Source: a virus
Strand: one strand, 5' to 3'
Length of the DNA: 36,841 nucleotides
Virus record (IMG/VR): IMGVR_UViG_3300025030_000278
Coordinates: 1-36,841 of that record
Under the pieces are notes generated by a model. That model saw nothing but the letters and a program-made list of their open reading frames with translations, was not told the origin of the DNA and made no database searches. Positions 2,425 through 36,820 of this stretch are shown here, one piece after another. Positions within the stretch are counted from its first letter, which is position 1, and every line of letters starts with the position of its first letter. Position numbers and translations under genes: made by a program.

Positions 2425-4533
2425 ATGCAACTAACGACCCATGACATTGCCGAGCGCCGGGAACGTGATGGACGGACGACCCTCTGGCTCTCCGAAAGGT
2501 TGCTGATTGAGGAATTGGATATTTCAGAAATGTACCTCCGAATGAAAGCACGGAGGGAATATCTGGAATCCGTCTCCCCTGCCAAAAAAGACAAAGACAT
2601 CCTCCCCGACACGGGCAAGTCGTGGCGGTACGCCCGCATCAACGGGGCCTTCTATTACGATTACGACCGCCTCCCAGCCAACCGCAGGGAAGCGCTGCCG
2701 GGAAAGGAAAAGCTGCTCCGGTTGGCGCAGCAAACCGACCTCGACACCTACCATAACCACCTGAAACGTCAGGTGGAGGCCATCTTAAATACCGATTTTC
2801 AACAGTACCTGCACCTTTACAGGGGCTACGACGACGACCATGCTCACACACTCGCTAAAGGCTGCGCCGTGTTGATGTTCGCAGCCGACACCCTCCGGAA
2901 CGGTGGCGCAGACAGCGCCACCGCTTTCCTGAACGAGCTTGCAAACGTGCTGAACCTCGTCGGGTGCGAGTACCTGCCGAAGCACTGGCGCAGGTTGAAA
3001 GAAAAGGTGGATACTATATTAAAAGGTGTACCCGTGCAGGAGGTGATGAAGCTCAAGCGGGAAGGTAACCAGAACGCCGCCCGCCTCAACGACGAGGAAG
3101 TAAAATCCTGGCTGCTCCAGATGCGCAACATGCCCGCCAACTACACCAACGCCTTCATCATCCGCAAGCTGCGGCTGATGTGTACCCTGGCGGAAAAGCG
3201 GGTGCCTTCAAAAAGCTGGTTTGAACTCGAATTGGCCAAACCGCTGACCAAGTTTCTGACCACCGCCCGCTTCGGCTCCGGCAAGCTCGGCGACAAGTGG
3301 AAAGGCTACATCCCGATTGAAAACGCCCTCCATTCCGGCGACTGCTGGATGATGGACGGCACCAGGGCCAACATGATTGCCTTTCGGAACGCCGAAGGCA
3401 AGGAAGAATTTCTATACTGGCTGGCCTGCTACGACGTGCATTCCGGCGACCTGCTCGGCCTGCATTTCGACACGAAAGAGGACCGCTGGGGCTACCTGAA
3501 TGCCTTGAAAATGTCGGTCTCCACTACCGGCTATCTGCCTTACGAAATCGTCATTGACCGCTTCCCCGGCCACAACACCGAGGAAATCGAACTGCTGATA
3601 AAACGCCTCGAACGCCTCGGCGTGAAGGTGACTATAACCTCCAAAAAGACGGGCAAATCGAAGCTCGAAAGGTTCTTTGAAACATTCCAGTCGGTGTTCA
3701 TGGCCGAATCGCCCTGGTATTACGGCGAAGGAGTACAGAGCAGCCGCACAGCCGCCCACCGCAGCCCCGAATACCTCAAGGCGCAAACAAAACGCCGCAA
3801 TAACGAGCAGTGGGATTTCAACGCCGCCTGGTCGGAGATGCTCCGCCTGGTGAGCATGTACCGGGACACACCCCTGGCCGAATACTCCGAAAAGTGCGCA
3901 GGCGTGGCCCAAAGCCCCCGCCAACTGCACGAGGCCAGCGACCGCCCGCACAGCGTGAAGGTAGAACCCTGGGACGCCGTGGAGCTTTTCGGCCTCGAAA
4001 AAACCGTGACCATCCGCCACGGCGGACTGATAAAAACAGACATCCAAAAAGTGGAATACTTCTACCGGGTGGACGAATATACGACCCTTAGCGAGCACAC
4101 AAAGGTGCGGCTCTGCTACGACATGGAAGACCTCACGACAGTCTATCTCTACGCCGACAGCGACGAGATAAACCGCCAATATCTCGGCACCGCCACCGAG
4201 CAGCGCCGGGCGCAGCTATACGGCCCCGATGCCGATATGTCGGGAATCGGAAAGGGAAAGGAAAAGATTGCCGCAATCGAAGCGGCCCGCAAAGAACACT
4301 TCAAAGTGCTGACCCAGGTGGCCGACGACGGCGACGAGGTGGACATCCTCCTCGCAGGGCTGGCCCAAAAAGGCGCAAAATCCAACGCCGAAACCGCCTG
4401 GCTCCACGAGCGAACCGCCGAATGGAAACCGACCGAAAAAAACAAGCCCCGCCTCCTCGATACGGAGGAAGCGGACGAATTGGACGAAGACACTTTTGCC
4501 CTCGTGCCGAACGCAGCACGGAAGCAGTACTAA
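2425..4533 (+). CDS. Mu-type transposase A (DDE)
   Basis: A 702-residue transposase that would bind the end sites and carry out replicative transposition and integration. The catalytic triad is visible in an rve-type core: Asp311 (WMMDGT), Asp378 (EIVIDRF) and Glu415 (KLERFFET). The first two Asp are 67 residues apart, as in Mu A (D269/D336); the second gap is shorter than in Mu. N-terminal residues about 1-80 form a winged/helical DNA-binding region, followed by the long alpha-helical end-binding region (to about 250); the C-terminal ~150 residues follow the Mu-transposase C-terminal layout. It is directly followed by its own terminator (4570-4598). Confidence 0.93.
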   Translation: MQLTTHDIAERRERDGRTTLWLSERLLIEELDISEMYLRMKARREYLESVSPAKKDKDILPDTGKSWRYARINGAFYYDYDRLPANRREALPGKEKLLRLAQQTDLDTYHNHLKRQVEAILNTDFQQYLHLYRGYDDDHAHTLAKGCAVLMFAADTLRNGGADSATAFLNELANVLNLVGCEYLPKHWRRLKEKVDTILKGVPVQEVMKLKREGNQNAARLNDEEVKSWLLQMRNMPANYTNAFIIRKLRLMCTLAEKRVPSKSWFELELAKPLTKFLTTARFGSGKLGDKWKGYIPIENALHSGDCWMMDGTRANMIAFRNAEGKEEFLYWLACYDVHSGDLLGLHFDTKEDRWGYLNALKMSVSTTGYLPYEIVIDRFPGHNTEEIELLIKRLERLGVKVTITSKKTGKSKLERFFETFQSVFMAESPWYYGEGVQSSRTAAHRSPEYLKAQTKRRNNEQWDFNAAWSEMLRLVSMYRDTPLAEYSEKCAGVAQSPRQLHEASDRPHSVKVEPWDAVELFGLEKTVTIRHGGLIKTDIQKVEYFYRVDEYTTLSEHTKVRLCYDMEDLTTVYLYADSDEINRQYLGTATEQRRAQLYGPDADMSGIGKGKEKIAAIEAARKEHFKVLTQVADDGDEVDILLAGLAQKGAKSNAETAWLHERTAEWKPTEKNKPRLLDTEEADELDEDTFALVPNAARKQY

Positions 4534-4632: not shown

Positions 4633-4836
4633 ATGCAAGCATTCTTTTTCATCGGCTCTGAGCCATCGAAGCAAAACAAACCTTTCATCGTCTTCGCAAA
4701 TAGCGAGGAGGAAGCCCTTTCAATTGCCTCAAATGTGCTGTCAGAAAAGGCATTCGGCAACCCTGAAAAATTAACGCCAGGAGCCGCTCAACTTATTTCC
4801 GAAGTCAATAATAAGGGCAAGTTTCAGAGCTATTAA
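4633..4836 (+). CDS. Small hypothetical protein
   Basis: A 67-residue protein beginning MQAFFFIGSEPSKQNKPFIV, with no recognised family. It has a short beta-strand-rich start and a helical acidic middle (EEEALSIASNVLSEK), resembling small standalone alpha/beta domains. It lies between two terminators (4570-4598 and 4909-4934) together with a tRNA-like minihelix, so it may form a separate transcription unit. The A-rich leader just before the ATG supports the start. Confidence 0.5.
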   Translation: MQAFFFIGSEPSKQNKPFIVFANSEEEALSIASNVLSEKAFGNPEKLTPGAAQLISEVNNKGKFQSY

Positions 4837-4841
4837 TGTTC

Positions 4842-4875
4842 GGGAGCGTGGGTTCGACTCCCGCCGCTCCCACCA
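4842..4875 (+). ncRNA. tRNA-like minihelix 1 (acceptor stem + T-arm + CCA)
   Basis: GGGAGCG (4842-4848) pairs perfectly with CGCTCCC (4865-4871). Between them is a T-arm: GTGGG, T-loop TTCGACT, CCCGC (4848-4864), with the conserved GGTTCGA core. ACCA (4872-4875) follows, as an encoded discriminator plus CCA. The first base of the T-stem is shared with the last base of the acceptor strand. There is no D-arm or anticodon arm. This is the shape of a minimal RNase P substrate. Whether it is processed or charged is unknown. Confidence 0.6.
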
Positions 4876-5131: not shown

Positions 5132-6124
5132 ATGAGTACGCCCATCAACATCAACAAAATGCACTTCAGCCAGATTTCCGACCTCGCCCGCAAAGAATGC
5201 GAGCGCCTCGGCTCTCAGTCCCGGCTCGCCGTAAAATGCGACGTTAGCGACGCAACCATTTCCCAAATCATCACGGGCAAATTCGACCAGGTGAGGGACG
5301 GCATGTGGCGGAAAGTCGCCGCCGTCCTCGACTGGCGTCCTGACGGCTGGCAAATCGTGGAGACCTCCAACACCCGTTCCGTGCATCAAATCATGTCGGA
5401 TGCGAAAGAGCAGCGCCTCTGGCTCACCGTATGCGACGGGGCCGGGGCCGGTAAAACCAGCGGGGCGAAGACATTCGTCGCAACGAACCGGGAGAACGTG
5501 TATTACCTCGAATGCGACGAGTGGAACAAAGGCGAGTTCGTGCGCCGTTTCGCCCGCTCCCTCGGCATCTCTTTCCTCGGATGCGGCACCTACTACGACC
5601 TGCTGGATAAGATAGTGCGAGACTTTCAACAGAAGTCCGACGAGCGGCCCCTCATCATCCTCGACCAGGCCGACAAGCTCCGTGACGCCGCTTTCCGCTG
5701 CCTCATCCCCCTGTTCAACGGCCTCGAAGACAAGGCCGGGATGGTGGTCATGGGCGTCGGCCACATACGCAAACGCATCCGCCGCAACGTCGAGCTTCAA
5801 ACTTGCGGCTTCGACGAAATAGAAAGCCGGTTCGGGCGCAAATACATCAACCTGCCGGGCCACACCCGCACCGACGTGGCTAACATCTGCCGGGGCAACG
5901 GCCTCGAAGACCCCGAAACAATCAAGCGTATTTGGGCGGAAGTGTGGGGCGAGGAAAAGGGCAGGTCCTCTATTGAAGGCCGGGAGGTGAACGTAATCAA
6001 GGACAACCGCCGCCTCAAACGCTGCATACAGCGGGAGATACTTATGCTTTCAGAAGCCTCCCCACCGCCCCCTCCAAGGGAGGGGGAGGCTTACGCCGAA
6101 GCGCTGGAATCCGTAGCGGCATAA
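5132..6124 (+). CDS. MuB-like target-DNA activator ATPase
   Basis: A 330-residue AAA+ ATPase. N-terminal HTH at about residues 30-52 (SRLAVKCDVSDATISQIITG), as in Mu B. Walker A GAGAGKTS at residues 103-110 (Lys108); Walker B LIILDQAD with Asp178. Mu B binds target DNA non-specifically, delivers it to the transposase and gives target immunity. The C-terminal ~25 residues contain a proline run (SPPPPPREGEAYAE) that is encoded by a GC palindrome inserted in frame (6056-6090) and is probably not part of the ancestral protein. Confidence 0.92.
   Translation: MSTPININKMHFSQISDLARKECERLGSQSRLAVKCDVSDATISQIITGKFDQVRDGMWRKVAAVLDWRPDGWQIVETSNTRSVHQIMSDAKEQRLWLTVCDGAGAGKTSGAKTFVATNRENVYYLECDEWNKGEFVRRFARSLGISFLGCGTYYDLLDKIVRDFQQKSDERPLIILDQADKLRDAAFRCLIPLFNGLEDKAGMVVMGVGHIRKRIRRNVELQTCGFDEIESRFGRKYINLPGHTRTDVANICRGNGLEDPETIKRIWAEVWGEEKGRSSIEGREVNVIKDNRRLKRCIQREILMLSEASPPPPPREGEAYAEALESVAA
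6056..6090. repeat. GC palindrome inserted in frame in the MuB C terminus
   Basis: CCCCCTCC (6068-6075) and GGAGGGGG (6079-6086) form an 8-bp stem, with partly overlapping outer GCCTCC/GGAGGC arms. It resembles the CCCC...GGGG palindromes found between tail genes in this window but lies inside a coding sequence near its 3' end. Confidence 0.6.
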
Positions 6125-7166: not shown

Positions 7167-7606
7167 AAACAAAATCACCGGCATCCGCCAACATAATCAA
7201 GTTCAACGCCCTGCTGCGGGAACTCTTCCCTTACAACCACGCCGAGGCGAAAGAGGGCCTCCTGAGCGGCTATCAGGTGACCAGCACCCTCGACCTGACA
7301 CCGGCGCAACTGTCCGAAGTCATCACCGGATTAGAAAACGAAAAGGCCAAGCGCCGCACCGAACCGGACCGGGAAACCCGGCAACTGCGCTCGAAATGCC
7401 TGAGCCTGATGACCGACATCGGCATCAATACCGCCGATTGGGCAAGGGTCAACGCCTTCTGCGAAAAGCCGCAGGTGCTGAACGGGCGCAGGCTCTACGA
7501 CCTGAACAAGGTCGAACTTGAAGCCTTCCGCAAAAAGCTGTTCGCTATCAAAAAGGAGTATGCCCGGCGCACCCAGGACGAAAAATTCTGGGCGGCCAAT
7601 AACTAA
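7163..7606 (+). CDS. GemA-like regulatory protein (DUF1018)
   Basis: A 147-residue protein whose C-terminal half (LRSKCLSLMTDIGI, DWARVNAFCEKP, then LYDLNKVELEAFRKKLFAI) matches the pattern of Mu gp16/GemA-type DUF1018 proteins (RR..L...G....W..VN.F). In Mu, GemA affects host gene expression and DNA topology. The start is ATG 7163, overlapping the previous stop (ATGA), not the upstream in-frame ATG at 7142. Gene order A-B-Gam-GemA follows Mu. Confidence 0.65.
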   Translation: MKTKSPASANIIKFNALLRELFPYNHAEAKEGLLSGYQVTSTLDLTPAQLSEVITGLENEKAKRRTEPDRETRQLRSKCLSLMTDIGINTADWARVNAFCEKPQVLNGRRLYDLNKVELEAFRKKLFAIKKEYARRTQDEKFWAANN

Positions 7607-7616
7607 AAACACCCGC

Positions 7617-8354
7617 ATGAAGTACACCCGTGAGCAAAGCCGCCGCCGCAATTACCTCGCCCGTGTCCTCATGGTGCAGGAAGCCCACAATGAAGTGTGG
7701 GAGGAGGACTTGACCAAGAAATACATCTGGCGCAAGTTCATTTTCGGGCGCTTCGGCATCAGCTACATCACTTATCTGAACATGCTCGGAATCAACGCAC
7801 GAAAAGAACTGAACGACTTTAATCAAAAAATTATCGAAATGAAAAATGCAAATCAACCCACTTTATTCGGCCTAATCATCATCTTTTTTGGTCTCATCAG
7901 CGCCTGCGGAGTGCCGGTTTCCAGGCTGGCCTCCACCTGCGCTGAACGCTACCCGGTGAAGGCCGATACCGTCACCGTCACCAGGACCGTCACCGACACG
8001 GTCGTCTTGCTCGATACGTACATGGAGTACGTGGATACCACAGAATGCCCGCCCTCCGACACGGCCATAACTATTGTAAAAACAGTCTCTGTGATGGTGC
8101 CTGGAAAAACCGTTTACAGCACACACGAGGTACACGACACCATGTTCGTGGTCGTGGACAGCGCCCACGTCGCCGCCCTGAAACAGGAACTCGAAGCCTG
8201 CAACCAGGCCCGCATCGCTGCCGCTGCCGCCGCCGCAACCGGCAGTCCCGGAGGGGCAACAAACAACGACGGTCTCCCATGGTGGTGGCTCCTCATCGTA
8301 GGCATCGGCGGCTTCCTCATTCGCAACTTTTTACCCAGAAAACAAAAGGCTTAG
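7617..8354 (+). CDS. Lipobox/TM protein, u-spanin-like, fused to a small N-domain
   Basis: A single open frame of 245 residues that looks like two genes without a stop between. Residues 1-74 (from ATG 7617) are a basic helical domain. An in-frame ATG at 7839 then begins a lipoprotein-type signal ending L-I-S-A-C (Cys23 of the short form). Next comes a Thr/Val/Asp-rich extended region (DTVTVTRTVTDTVV), a short helical segment, an Ala-rich linker, and a C-terminal membrane segment (WWWLLIVGIGGFL) with a basic tail. A 171-residue product with an N-terminal lipid anchor and C-terminal inner-membrane anchor is the layout of a unimolecular spanin (such as T1 gp11), which fuses inner and outer membranes at lysis. 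Position in the early/middle region is unusual for lysis. Confidence 0.5.
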   Translation: MKYTREQSRRRNYLARVLMVQEAHNEVWEEDLTKKYIWRKFIFGRFGISYITYLNMLGINARKELNDFNQKIIEMKNANQPTLFGLIIIFFGLISACGVPVSRLASTCAERYPVKADTVTVTRTVTDTVVLLDTYMEYVDTTECPPSDTAITIVKTVSVMVPGKTVYSTHEVHDTMFVVVDSAHVAALKQELEACNQARIAAAAAAATGSPGGATNNDGLPWWWLLIVGIGGFLIRNFLPRKQKA

Positions 8355-8380
8355 TCGGTTTTTTCAACATTGTTTGGTCT

Positions 8381-8409
8381 CCGCCCCCTTTCGTGGGGCG
8401 GGGCTTTTT
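8381..8409 (+). terminator. Intrinsic terminator after the spanin-like gene
   Basis: CGCCCC (8382-8387) pairs with GGGGCG (8395-8400), loop CTTTCGT, followed by GGGC and TTTTT (8405-8409). Confidence 0.7.
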
Positions 8410-8452
8410 GGCCGGAACGGTTCCAGCGGGTTCGATTCCAGCTCCGGCCTCA
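8410..8452 (+). ncRNA. tRNA-like minihelix 2 (acceptor stem + T-arm)
   Basis: GGCCGGA (8410-8416) pairs perfectly with TCCGGCC (8443-8449), giving a 7-bp acceptor-like stem. The 17 bases directly before the 3' strand form a T-arm: GCGGG, loop TTCGATT, CCAGC (8426-8442), with one G-A mismatch and the conserved GGGTTCGATTCC core. Only a 9-base linker (8417-8425) replaces the D- and anticodon arms. TCA follows the stem instead of NCCA. It begins at the end of the T-run of the preceding terminator. Confidence 0.55.
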
Positions 8453-8513
8453 TAGTATCAGTAAGGCCCCAGGTCGGCCCGCTTTTTAAAACCCACACAC
8501 ACACATCACGCCC

Positions 8514-9164
8514 ATGAGCGCCAAAAGAAAGGCCATCGGAATTTCCGATTTCCTGAACAAAAAATTTGACAGCTTCCACTTCGACGGAGCCTGGAAAGCC
8601 AGCTTCGGCGAGCCGGAGAAAAATTTCAAGATGGTCGTCTATGGCAACTCTGGCAACGGCAAAACGGACTTCTGCGTCAAGCTCGCAAAGTACCTCTCCC
8701 GATTCGGGAAAGTGTATTACAACAGCTTCGAGGAGGGCGTCAGCAAGACCCTACAGGATGCCTTCGTGCGCAACGACATGCGGGAAGTGACAGGCAGGGT
8801 CATCGTCGGCGACCGGGAAAACTTCACCGACATGATGCAGCGCCTCGGCAGCCGGAACAGTCCGCATTTCGTGGTGATTGACAGCCGGGACTATATGAAA
8901 TTTACCACAGAGCAGTACAAAATGCTCACCGAGCGCCACCACCGGAAAAGCCTCATCGTCGTCTGCTGGGAGATGAACAGCGCCCCCAGGGGCGAACACG
9001 GAAAACAGATGCTCTATATGTGCGACATCAAAGTACACGTGAAGAATTTCGTAGCCATCCCACGCTGCCGCTACGGGGGAAACGGGCGCTTCACAATATG
9101 GGAGCGCCCGCTCGACCACCAGGAAGAAGCGCCCAATTTGTTCAACCAAACGCAACAGATATGA
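8514..9164 (+). CDS. RecA/RadA-like P-loop ATPase
   Basis: A 216-residue ATPase with Walker A GNSGNGKT (residues 44-51, Lys50) and Walker B FVVIDS (Asp123), in the order and spacing of the RecA/RadA/DnaB core. It lacks the extended DNA-binding and multimerisation parts of RecA, so it is a minimal core. Such ATPases are often seen in Bacteroidota phages and mobile elements; a role in DNA replication or repair is likely but the substrate is not shown by the sequence. The stop overlaps the next start (ATGA). Confidence 0.65.
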   Translation: MSAKRKAIGISDFLNKKFDSFHFDGAWKASFGEPEKNFKMVVYGNSGNGKTDFCVKLAKYLSRFGKVYYNSFEEGVSKTLQDAFVRNDMREVTGRVIVGDRENFTDMMQRLGSRNSPHFVVIDSRDYMKFTTEQYKMLTERHHRKSLIVVCWEMNSAPRGEHGKQMLYMCDIKVHVKNFVAIPRCRYGGNGRFTIWERPLDHQEEAPNLFNQTQQI

Positions 9165-9553
9165 ACGTGCAACAAATCCGCAGGCAACTCGACGCTATCG
9201 AGTTCACCATCACCGCCATCCGGCAGGAACTGAACGACGATGACGGCCCAGCCAGGCCCATGCTCGATGAAATCGCCGCCTATACCATCGCCACCTTCGG
9301 CCTGGATTCCAGGCGCTTCTACGGCAACAAGCGCCAGGCCGACGTTGTGAACGCCCGTGCAGCTTTCGCTATGGCCGCCTATCAAAATGGCTACACCCTC
9401 AAGGCCATCGGTATCCATATCCACAAGGACCATTCGAGCATCGTACACCTGCGCCGTGATTACGAACTGCGCACCCGGCAGTGGCCGGAATACCAGGACA
9501 TGATGAACAAAGTCACCGATAATTTCCGCCGCCAAAACCTGAGTATCACATGA
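9161..9553 (+). CDS. Small DNA-binding protein with DnaA domain IV
   Basis: A 130-residue protein. Residues about 35-102 match the C-terminal DNA-binding domain of DnaA: FYGNKRQADVVNARAAFAMAAY, then the turn LKAIGIHIHKDHSSIVHLRR, whose KDHSSIVHL corresponds to the DnaA signature (DHSTV). There is no ATPase domain. It starts at ATG 9161, coupled to the RecA-like gene, and its own stop overlaps the next ATG. It could mark a replication site or act as a middle/late transcription activator in the place where Mu carries mor and C; both are inference. Confidence 0.65.
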   Translation: MNVQQIRRQLDAIEFTITAIRQELNDDDGPARPMLDEIAAYTIATFGLDSRRFYGNKRQADVVNARAAFAMAAYQNGYTLKAIGIHIHKDHSSIVHLRRDYELRTRQWPEYQDMMNKVTDNFRRQNLSIT

Positions 9554-9831
9554 AAAAGCCGGATATAATTTTCACGGAACAGTTTGACCTGACCCGCTCG
9601 GACCTGCCACCTGCCTCAGACCTGTTCGGCTATGTAGCGGAGGTATTGGTTCGTGGTACACACAACTTCAACATCGCACTGATTATGCAGAAGGAGATGA
9701 CACTCGAAGAAATAGTAGCCCCTGTAATCGCAGAAGCTGCAAGGCGGGGCTGCGAGGTTGATGAGATACTATTCATCAAGGCCGAGCGGCTATCGTGTGG
9801 AAGTGAATGCTTTTCAAACCACCTTAAATAA
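9550..9831 (+). CDS. Hypothetical protein
   Basis: A 93-residue acidic protein (MKKPDIIFTEQFDLTRSDLP...), no family recognised. It has an alpha/beta look, with a C-terminal Cys pair (CGSEC). Start and stop are tightly packed: ATGA overlap with the DnaA-like gene, and 7 bases to the next ATG. Its last codons fall in a 17-base sequence (9797-9813) repeated exactly at 11057-11073. Confidence 0.55.
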   Translation: MKKPDIIFTEQFDLTRSDLPPASDLFGYVAEVLVRGTHNFNIALIMQKEMTLEEIVAPVIAEAARRGCEVDEILFIKAERLSCGSECFSNHLK

Positions 9832-13109: not shown

Positions 13110-14276
13110 TTAGCGTATTATTTGAAACAAATTATTGCTTACCTCAAGCGTGAACGTGTAGCCGCCCACCACAATACTATATAAATACGTGCCTTCTTCC
13201 AAAGGCAAGAGCGTAGCCTGAGCGCCGAGCAGGTGCAGCACGGTGAGGATGTCGTTCCTGATAGCCCGCTCCACCGCCGACGCCGACAGCGTACGGCTGA
13301 TAAAATCCAGGTTCACCCTCGCCGCCTTCGACATGCCCGGCAGCTTTTGCGTGGTACCGACAAACTTTTCGGCGAGTTGATAGACTTCCCTCGTTTCCCA
13401 TTCCGCCCGCAGGGCCTCGCTGCCTTTTTCGATTGCGGCCAGGCCGGGCTTGTCGAAATTGTAATATGGGTGGTCTTCCTCCACCAGCTTGCCCGTCCTG
13501 CCCGGATTATTTCGGAACCCTTTCGGCGGCTCGAAATCGAGCGCCTCCGAGCCGGTCGGCGCTTCGTCCGTCTGGATGACGATGCACCTACATCTCCACC
13601 CGTTGGGCGGCATAAATGTGTCCCAAAATGTGCTTTGGACGGGGTATATCCTGCCATCCAATGCACGGTGCGATTCCCTTACCCGCTCGTCGCCAGCGGT
13701 TTCGTAGCGCAGGTTGGGGTAGAGATAGGCCCGCTTTTCGATGTCCCGCCACTTGGCGGCGCTGTTGGCGCTCGCCAGGGTAGTCTGCAATTCCGCTTCG
13801 AGATAGTCCCGGTGGTGCCTTCTAACCGCTCTTTTGCCCTCCTTTAAAAAGTCGTTCAGCGGCAGTTTACGGAGGGTTTTCAATTCCTCGGTGAGCGTGG
13901 CCAGCTTGCCGCCCGAAAAGGTGCTGGCGCTTCGCTTCAAGCGTTCCATCAGGTCAAATTCCAGCCAGTCTGCCGGGCCGGTGAGCCGTTTCCCGTAGCC
14001 CGCCTCGGCGAACTGCCGGAAGCGGCTGTAATATTCCCGCCATAGCGGGGCGTCGAGGGCGTTGGCCTTCCACTTGCCGCCATGCAAGCGTTTCAGGAAA
14101 TCATCCTCCATCGGGGCGGGGATGCGGCGGAAGCGGTTGTCGAAATTGGCGTCTGCGAGGAGTGTCACCCCCCCTGCCCCCCCCTGAGGGGGGTTGCACG
14201 ACGGGCAGGTGCAGGTAGCGCCGTGGGCCATCAGCGCCCGGAGGTCGTATTGCCGTATGTATTGGCGGTTGGTCAC
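13110..14276 (-). CDS. Minor head protein, Mu F-like head morphogenesis
   Basis: A 388-residue protein. The middle region (about residues 150-270) is the phage Mu protein F-like domain: helical lead-in (YLEAELQTTLASANSAAKW), R-Y-E-T-A-G-D-E-R-V-R-E-S-H-R-A-L-D-G, then FWDTFMPPNGWRCRCIVIQ. These correspond to 'yrtvgD.rvR..H..ldG' and 'p.p..gwnCrC'. It acts at the portal vertex in early capsid assembly. The start codon is GTG (14274-14276), overlapping the portal stop as GTGA. A GC palindrome (14166-14194) encodes the NPPQGGAGGV stretch near the N terminus, after a CTCPSC motif. Confidence 0.88.
   Translation of the reverse strand: MTNRQYIRQYDLRALMAHGATCTCPSCNPPQGGAGGVTLLADANFDNRFRRIPAPMEDDFLKRLHGGKWKANALDAPLWREYYSRFRQFAEAGYGKRLTGPADWLEFDLMERLKRSASTFSGGKLATLTEELKTLRKLPLNDFLKEGKRAVRRHHRDYLEAELQTTLASANSAAKWRDIEKRAYLYPNLRYETAGDERVRESHRALDGRIYPVQSTFWDTFMPPNGWRCRCIVIQTDEAPTGSEALDFEPPKGFRNNPGRTGKLVEEDHPYYNFDKPGLAAIEKGSEALRAEWETREVYQLAEKFVGTTQKLPGMSKAARVNLDFISRTLSASAVERAIRNDILTVLHLLGAQATLLPLEEGTYLYSIVVGGYTFTLEVSNNLFQIIR
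14166..14194. repeat. GC palindrome inserted in frame in the F-like gene
   Basis: CCCCCC (14179-14184), TGA, GGGGGG (14188-14193), preceded by a CACCCCCCCTG tract, is of the same type as the palindromes at 21695-21737 and 28824-28840 between tail genes. Here it is read through as coding sequence. Confidence 0.6.
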
Positions 14277-21685: not shown

Positions 21686-21738
21686 CCCCTTTGTCCCCCT
21701 CAAGGGGGATTCACCCCCCTGCCCCCCTCAAGGGGGGT
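21686..21738. repeat. Two adjacent CCCCCT-CA-AGGGGG palindromes
   Basis: Stems CCCCCT/AGGGGG (21695-21708) and CCCCCCT/AGGGGGG (21722-21737) with very short loops. Copies of the same type occur at 14179 and 28824. They precede the tRNA gene. Confidence 0.65.
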
Positions 21739-21743
21739 AATAT

Positions 21744-21818
21744 CGCACCGTAGAGCAGTTGGTAGCTCGTGAGGTTCATACCCTCAAGGTCGCAGGTTCG
21801 AGTCCTGCCGGTGCCACA
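21744..21818 (+). tRNA. tRNA-Met-like (anticodon CAT) in the late operon
   Basis: A full cloverleaf can be drawn: acceptor CGCACCG/CGGTGCC (21744-21750, 21809-21815; position 1:72 is a C-C mismatch), D-stem GAGC/GCTC with loop AGTTGGTA, anticodon stem TGAGG/CCTCA with loop TTCATAC (anticodon CAT, 21777-21779), variable loop AGGTC, T-arm GCAGG/TTCGAGT/CCTGC, then ACA. CAT could be read by Met or, if modified, Ile. The 1:72 mismatch recalls initiator tRNA, but the anticodon stem lacks the three consecutive G-C pairs of an initiator. CCA is not fully encoded. Confidence 0.75.
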
Positions 21819-28809: not shown

Positions 28810-28823
28810 TCACCCCCCTTAAT

Positions 28824-28840
28824 CCCCCCTCAAAGGGGGG
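28824..28840. repeat. CCCCCCT-CAA-AGGGGGG palindrome
   Basis: Perfect 7-bp stem (28824-28830 and 28834-28840), then TTGGACAAAAAAAC and the ATG at 28855. It is the same type as 21722-21737. Confidence 0.65.
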
Positions 28841-36764: not shown

Positions 36765-36779
36765 TGCACATTTGGTTTT
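36765..36779 (+). repeat. Terminal transposase-site candidate, right (R1)
   Basis: TGCACATTTGGTTTT is the exact reverse complement of 41-55 and identical to 219-233. It lies 24 bases after the last gene. Only one clear copy is seen at this end; weaker ones may exist. Confidence 0.6.
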
Positions 36780-36783
36780 GTGT

Positions 36784-36820
36784 AAATCGTCATTTTGCGG
36801 ATGCAGGATGACGATTTTTT
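36784..36820. terminator. Perfect hairpin in the right flank
   Basis: AAATCGTCAT (36784-36793) and ATGACGATTT (36808-36817) form a perfect 10-bp stem, loop of 14, with a T-run on the right. It is directly outside the right end-site candidate; it may be a host terminator next to which the phage inserted, or part of the phage end. Confidence 0.6.

Follow-up and report, generated by a model that had tools for sequence, protein, structure and literature searches.

The 40-base hairpin at 8410-8449 of this virus record amounts to the "top half" of a tRNA, with no anticodon; comparison with the sequences of other phages gives good support to its membership in a family of mini-tRNA-like phage elements. 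Such elements stand between genes in many phages and probably serve there as signals at which one long message is split. For the copy studied here, the comparative data favour a selected tRNA-like minihelix, putatively a cleavage or leader element ahead of an ATPase gene. The record, analysed as a single window of 36,841 nucleotides, is a Mu-like (transposable) phage of Bacteroidota type, its relatives being hankyphage p00 and phages of Elizabethkingia, Winogradskyella and Porphyromonas.

The element reads GGCCGGA-ACGGTTCCA-GCGGG-TTCGATT-CCAGC-TCCGGCC on the + strand, followed by TCA, and consists of these parts:

8410-8416, + strand: 5' strand GGCCGGA of the outer (acceptor-like) stem, perfectly paired with 8443-8449 and within the match to R1, the covariance model described below
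8417-8425, + strand: linker ACGGTTCCA, with a D-loop-like GG at 8419-8420, fitting the invariant GG and the AACGGTT consensus of the family
8426-8442, + strand: T-arm, made of GCGGG (8426-8430), the loop TTCGATT (8431-8437) and CCAGC (8438-8442)
8443-8452, + strand: 3' strand TCCGGCC of the outer stem (8443-8449) and the tail TCA, as read from the sequence

The perfect 7-bp outer stem and the 9-nt linker named in an earlier, sequence-only reading of this DNA are both there. Its T-arm is present too, with one G-A mismatch that the reading did not mention and that leaves 4 of 5 T-stem pairs; the linker, correctly measured but taken as neutral, carries at 8419-8420 the invariant GG of the family. 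The T-loop TTCGATT is identical to the family consensus.

Folding energy, considered as evidence for the element, was uninformative (z -0.96), and for the generic shape, an acceptor stem plus T-arm in which the 7-bp stem is perfect and the linker measures -2 to 15 nt, the expected number of matches per window is about 0.12. The decisive test for 8410 was comparative and showed that the element is no chance occurrence. R1, a covariance model built from an alignment of 31 elements of other phages with the window left out, matches 8410-8451 at 32.9 bits (E = 3.1e-6) as the top match of the window, and the element received an E of 1.1e-4 in a 1.36-Mb search. Rfam 15 gave no match at gathering score at 8410 and weak ones below threshold, the best being tRNA-Sec at 14.3 bits, where the cut-off is 47. 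The only canonical tRNA found in the window (RF00005 at the Rfam gathering score, or ARAGORN) lies at 21744-21817, not at 8410. This tRNA-Met(cat)-like gene stands upstream of the DUF2586 (sheath) gene and has C-C as its first acceptor pair; cat tRNAs like it are common to many related Mu-like phages.

Members of the family combine an acceptor-like stem with a T-arm, and a GG-bearing linker replaces the D and anticodon arms. Their plan is an outer stem of 5-7 bp, a linker of about 9-12 nt with an invariant, D-loop-like GG, a T-stem of 5-7 bp and the T-loop TTCRANY. The stems differ in sequence yet keep their pairing, while the loops are constant. The summed stem length is mostly 11-12 bp: of 78 elements, 75 have 11-13 bp, with 12 the commonest value, which is close to the 12-bp acceptor/T helix of tRNA. 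Members were detected with paired stems, and a fully paired T-stem is not required by R1. The helix is mostly followed by A or G and then C; of 82 elements, 62 have C at position 74 and only 5 at position 75, and CCA is rare. No description of such a family appeared among the listed results of searches in the open-licence literature, so "undescribed" here means not found there; the hankyphage papers examined make no mention of tRNA.

In the 31-row alignment behind R1, pairing is 100% and the covariation score is high, values that arise partly by selection because the rows were picked with paired stems. Cleaner pairing tests set conditions on the loops and on the inner G-C pairs of the T-stem alone and left the outer stem free. 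Among such loop-defined matches, some of which are ordinary tRNAs, a full 5-bp outer stem was present in 56 of 126 (versus 2.2% with shuffled flanks) and, in a fresh sample, in 75 of 109 (versus 3.2%); complete outer T-stem pairing was seen in 112 of the 126 and in 101 of the 109. A strict descriptor gave 129 matches versus 0 on reversed or complemented sequence, a count in which part of the loci had been fetched by pattern. These results bear on the idea that the element is the relic of a tRNA, either a gene in decay or a 3' end left at an attachment site, which would explain its tRNA-conserved bases and draws on the fact that tRNA genes and att sites are both found in phages. We judge it highly improbable: pairing in the pattern-only samples is far above that of shuffles, the outer stem stays paired across many unrelated stems, and copies recur between genes of one phage. 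Mu-like phages, moreover, are not known to use tRNA genes as integration sites, which also counts against a remnant.

Across 1.39 Mb of Bacteroidota Mu-like loci, perfect T-arms numbered 47 in the forward orientation versus 3 on the reverse complement, 0 on reversed and 0 on complemented sequence; the same scan (T-arm plus acceptor-like stem) over 2.19 Mb returned 75 versus 9, 1 and 0. Some of the scanned elements have neither D nor anticodon arm and share an AACGGTT-type linker. R1 matches in 74 sources lay on the + strand in 25 of 25 cases. Searched against host chromosomes with strict filters and 32 candidates scored per genome, R1 found matches in 1 of 198 Bacteroidota genomes, three in number and all on a single contig holding the Mu-like prophage region L141. 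This Epilithonimonas hispanica contig and the viral contig L102 each carry three mini copies, one ahead of MuA, one ahead of the ATPase gene and one elsewhere. A loop-only pattern scan of viral contigs added more, including at least five copies in each of L171, L233 and L251 (L251 is Mycobacterium phage Cuke). On the - strand of another contig, L290, five closely spaced, near-identical mini elements stand within about 700 nt (~9000-9660 in reverse-complement coordinates).

The sequence-only reading had proposed that the shape arose or was kept twice, which understates a multi-copy family in phages of both Bacteroidota and mycobacteria. Its second example is the following:

4842-4875, + strand: linkerless minihelix of acceptor stem and T-arm, with ACCA at its 3' end; it starts 5 nt downstream of the stop codon that closes the ORF at 4633-4836 (fold z -3.3)

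Apart from tRNA-conserved bases the two sequences are indeed unlike each other. The 4842 minihelix is a linkerless variant; its membership in R1 is unsupported, with R1 seeing only the T-arm (11.4 bits). A similar architecture occurs in phage Predator, where the junction at 40395-40537 holds a linkerless hairpin with a 12-bp stem and a 7-nt loop.

The genes that frame the two minihelices are:

2425-4533: MuA-like transposase
5132-6124: MuB-like ATPase
8514-9164, + strand: ATPase (phrog_6891) of Bacteroidota Mu-like phages (phrogs E 1.1e-59), with relatives in hankyphage p00 and others

Head and tail genes come after the phrog_6891 ATPase. In annotated relatives MuA, MuB and the ATPase gene are direct or near neighbours, and the same gaps in the window hold extra genes and both minihelices (4842 and 8410). 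Comparison of 7501-9600 with known phages found no DNA similarity, and viral contigs scanned with the single ATPase protein of the window gave no match; an alignment was used instead. ORF calls in unannotated loci are mechanical. Elsewhere in the window, the repeat TGCACATTTGG occurs at 219-239, 287-307 and 36765-36785, near both record ends, perhaps as transposase-binding sites, and C-rich inverted repeats (CCCCC...GGGGG) are intergenic at 14171-14193, 21686-21736 and 28816-28838.

The earlier reading had been made to depend on related phages not having random sequence at this junction, and here the relatives divide. A family member stands directly before the same ATPase gene in L102 (~13 nt, a distance taken by eye) and in L141 (~18 nt), but the closest relatives, L016-L021, have no element directly before it; L016, L017 and L019 do have tRNA-like elements at other places in the stretch from MuB to the ATPase gene. 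The proposal of a conserved processing or leader element draws support from the family and from the junction shared with L102 and L141, and loses some through L016-L021. The junction before MuA is occupied by mini elements in some phages and by full-length tRNA-like ones in others, an exchange that fits recognition of the top half only. Full-length tRNA-like elements with aberrant anticodon arms were seen at L003:1767-1850 and L005:1284-1377; the one in p00 starts 10 nt after a stop codon and is located upstream of MuA, and the anticodon arm in L005 is an 8-bp stem with a GTGAA loop.

Family elements are intergenic and sit on the coding strand. Of 83 elements, 61 have a stop codon at -10 to +15 nt upstream, compared to 147 of 1421 shifted controls (10%), and 58 have a start codon within 60 nt downstream, compared to 315 of 1421 (22%). 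The fresh sample showed the same tendencies more weakly: of 75 elements, 28 had a stop nearby (versus 8.7%) and 25 a start no more than 60 nt away (versus 18.5%). In the parts read of three mycobacteriophages (Predator, Indlulamithi and Cuke), elements occupy 22 of the 33 junctions that span 60-160 nt and 0 of the 36 shorter ones. Several of the 11 long junctions without a strict match hold variant tRNA-like elements, as judged by eye, an example being the linkerless Predator hairpin. The clearest positional constraint is the usual distance of 0-10 nt from stop to element, which leaves little room for a promoter, so that the element would most simply be part of a polycistronic transcript.

These positions help to weigh two other functions. 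The folded element might be bound by a protein or the ribosome, as an elbow-binding factor, and regulate translation or stability of the downstream message without any cutting. A constant shape on variable stems is compatible with shape recognition by any such factor, and elements stand a median of 30 nt before the start codon; even so, we consider this unlikely, because starts follow at anything from 3 to >60 nt while the stop is held close, a combination that suits intercistronic cutting better than contact with an initiating ribosome. Alternatively, an excised mini-RNA could act in trans as a decoy, tying up tRNA-binding enzymes that belong either to the host or to a defence system. Several copies per phage, and the short tRNA-like RNAs that processing would free, agree with a decoy, but we regard it as very unlikely, since it has no need for placement 0-10 nt after stops or for absence from short junctions.

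The surroundings of the 8410 element contain two further structures:

8379-8409, + strand: intrinsic terminator hairpin and T-run, with a 9-pair stem, 8 G-C pairs and a T tail
8426-8490, + strand: alternative hairpin in which the T-stem strand GCGGG pairs with CCCGC preceding a T-run, excluding the minihelix

Folding of the terminator stretch 8377-8409 gave a z of -3.8, and the element starts where the terminator T-run stops, just as the sequence-only reading had it. The element lies on the coding strand, 55 nt after the preceding stop with the terminator between, and 64 nt before the ATPase start. At 8481-8490, CCCGC and then a T-run, complementary to GCGGG, form a possible attenuator hairpin. 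The window element could be half of a terminator/antiterminator switch, in which the intact minihelix would keep GCGGG from pairing with CCCGC (~8481-8490), and its opening would allow a terminator-like hairpin to end transcription before it reaches the ATPase gene. The free fold contains the alternative hairpin at -26.7 kcal/mol, compared to -22.6 kcal/mol with the minihelix forced, and in short prefixes of the transcript the minihelix is preferred and folds first, as a switch would have it. We give a switch little chance, however: a z-score of -0.31 for the whole stretch makes the alternative hairpin weak, the energy model omits tertiary elbow contacts, and the listed Cuke elements have no T-run directly after them, which indicates that a switch is not a feature of the family.

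We return to intercistronic processing and lean, by a modest degree, towards 8410-8449 being, as a family member, a cis-acting processing signal in phage mRNA that is cut by RNase P with or without RNase Z. RNase P recognises the tRNA elbow, and the invariant GG and the T-loop fit this. The linker GG would form such an elbow against the T-loop and, together with the ~12-bp helix, would imitate a tRNA precursor, so that host RNase P, possibly with RNase Z, would cut the transcript at the element. We infer that such a cut would affect expression by separating upstream from downstream messages, giving the ATPase mRNA an end of its own. Model hairpins made of an acceptor stem, T-stem and T-loop are cleaved by RNase P (McClain et al., 1987, as described in PMC11143913). 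Of the features of such RNase P substrates, the 8410 element has the T-loop, a first pair G-C (G+1-C72) and a coaxial helix of about 12 bp, in 7 + 5 positions with one mismatch, but not the 3' RCC(A), its tail being UCA. Counting against processing at 8410 are the T-stem mismatch, the UCA tail, the terminator upstream, a stop 55 nt away versus the usual 0-10 nt, the missing element directly ahead of this gene in L016-L021 and the weaker positional signal of the fresh sample. More tentatively, anticodon-less mini-tRNAs cut by host RNase P may divide operons into messages under separate control in phages of distant hosts (Bacteroidota, mycobacteria and others), a generalisation that we hold at just short of an even chance.

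Several known systems resemble parts of this picture. In mitochondrial tRNA punctuation, tRNA structures between genes are cut out and mRNAs are thereby released; there the tRNAs are whole and functional, whereas the phage elements are anticodon-less minihelices for which cutting is proposed. The P4 CI and P1/P7 C4 RNAs are phage RNAs with a tRNA-like RNase P site, but each is a single immunity RNA, while the mini elements are a repeated mark at gene junctions. The tRNA-like domain of tmRNA has, like the mini elements, an acceptor stem, a T-arm and a D-loop without a D-stem, and no anticodon arm. Unlike tmRNA, the mini elements are short and intercistronic, with neither a tag reading frame nor a CCA end. 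The RNase P model substrates described in PMC11143913 have the same domain, a ~12-bp helix with a T-loop, which the linkerless Predator copy matches as a 12-bp hairpin with a 7-nt loop. Those substrates are synthetic, whereas the phage elements are natural and intercistronic, usually with a GG linker and mostly without CCA.

If the processing interpretation is true, the elements would add to phage gene expression an RNA layer that is widespread yet unannotated, and would mark mRNA boundaries within phage operons that go unrecorded in current annotation. They would extend tRNA punctuation from organelles to phages and would provide natural minimal RNase P substrates whose stems have been varied by evolution. 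Because members occur in mycobacteriophages that grow on M. smegmatis, the system would be directly testable.
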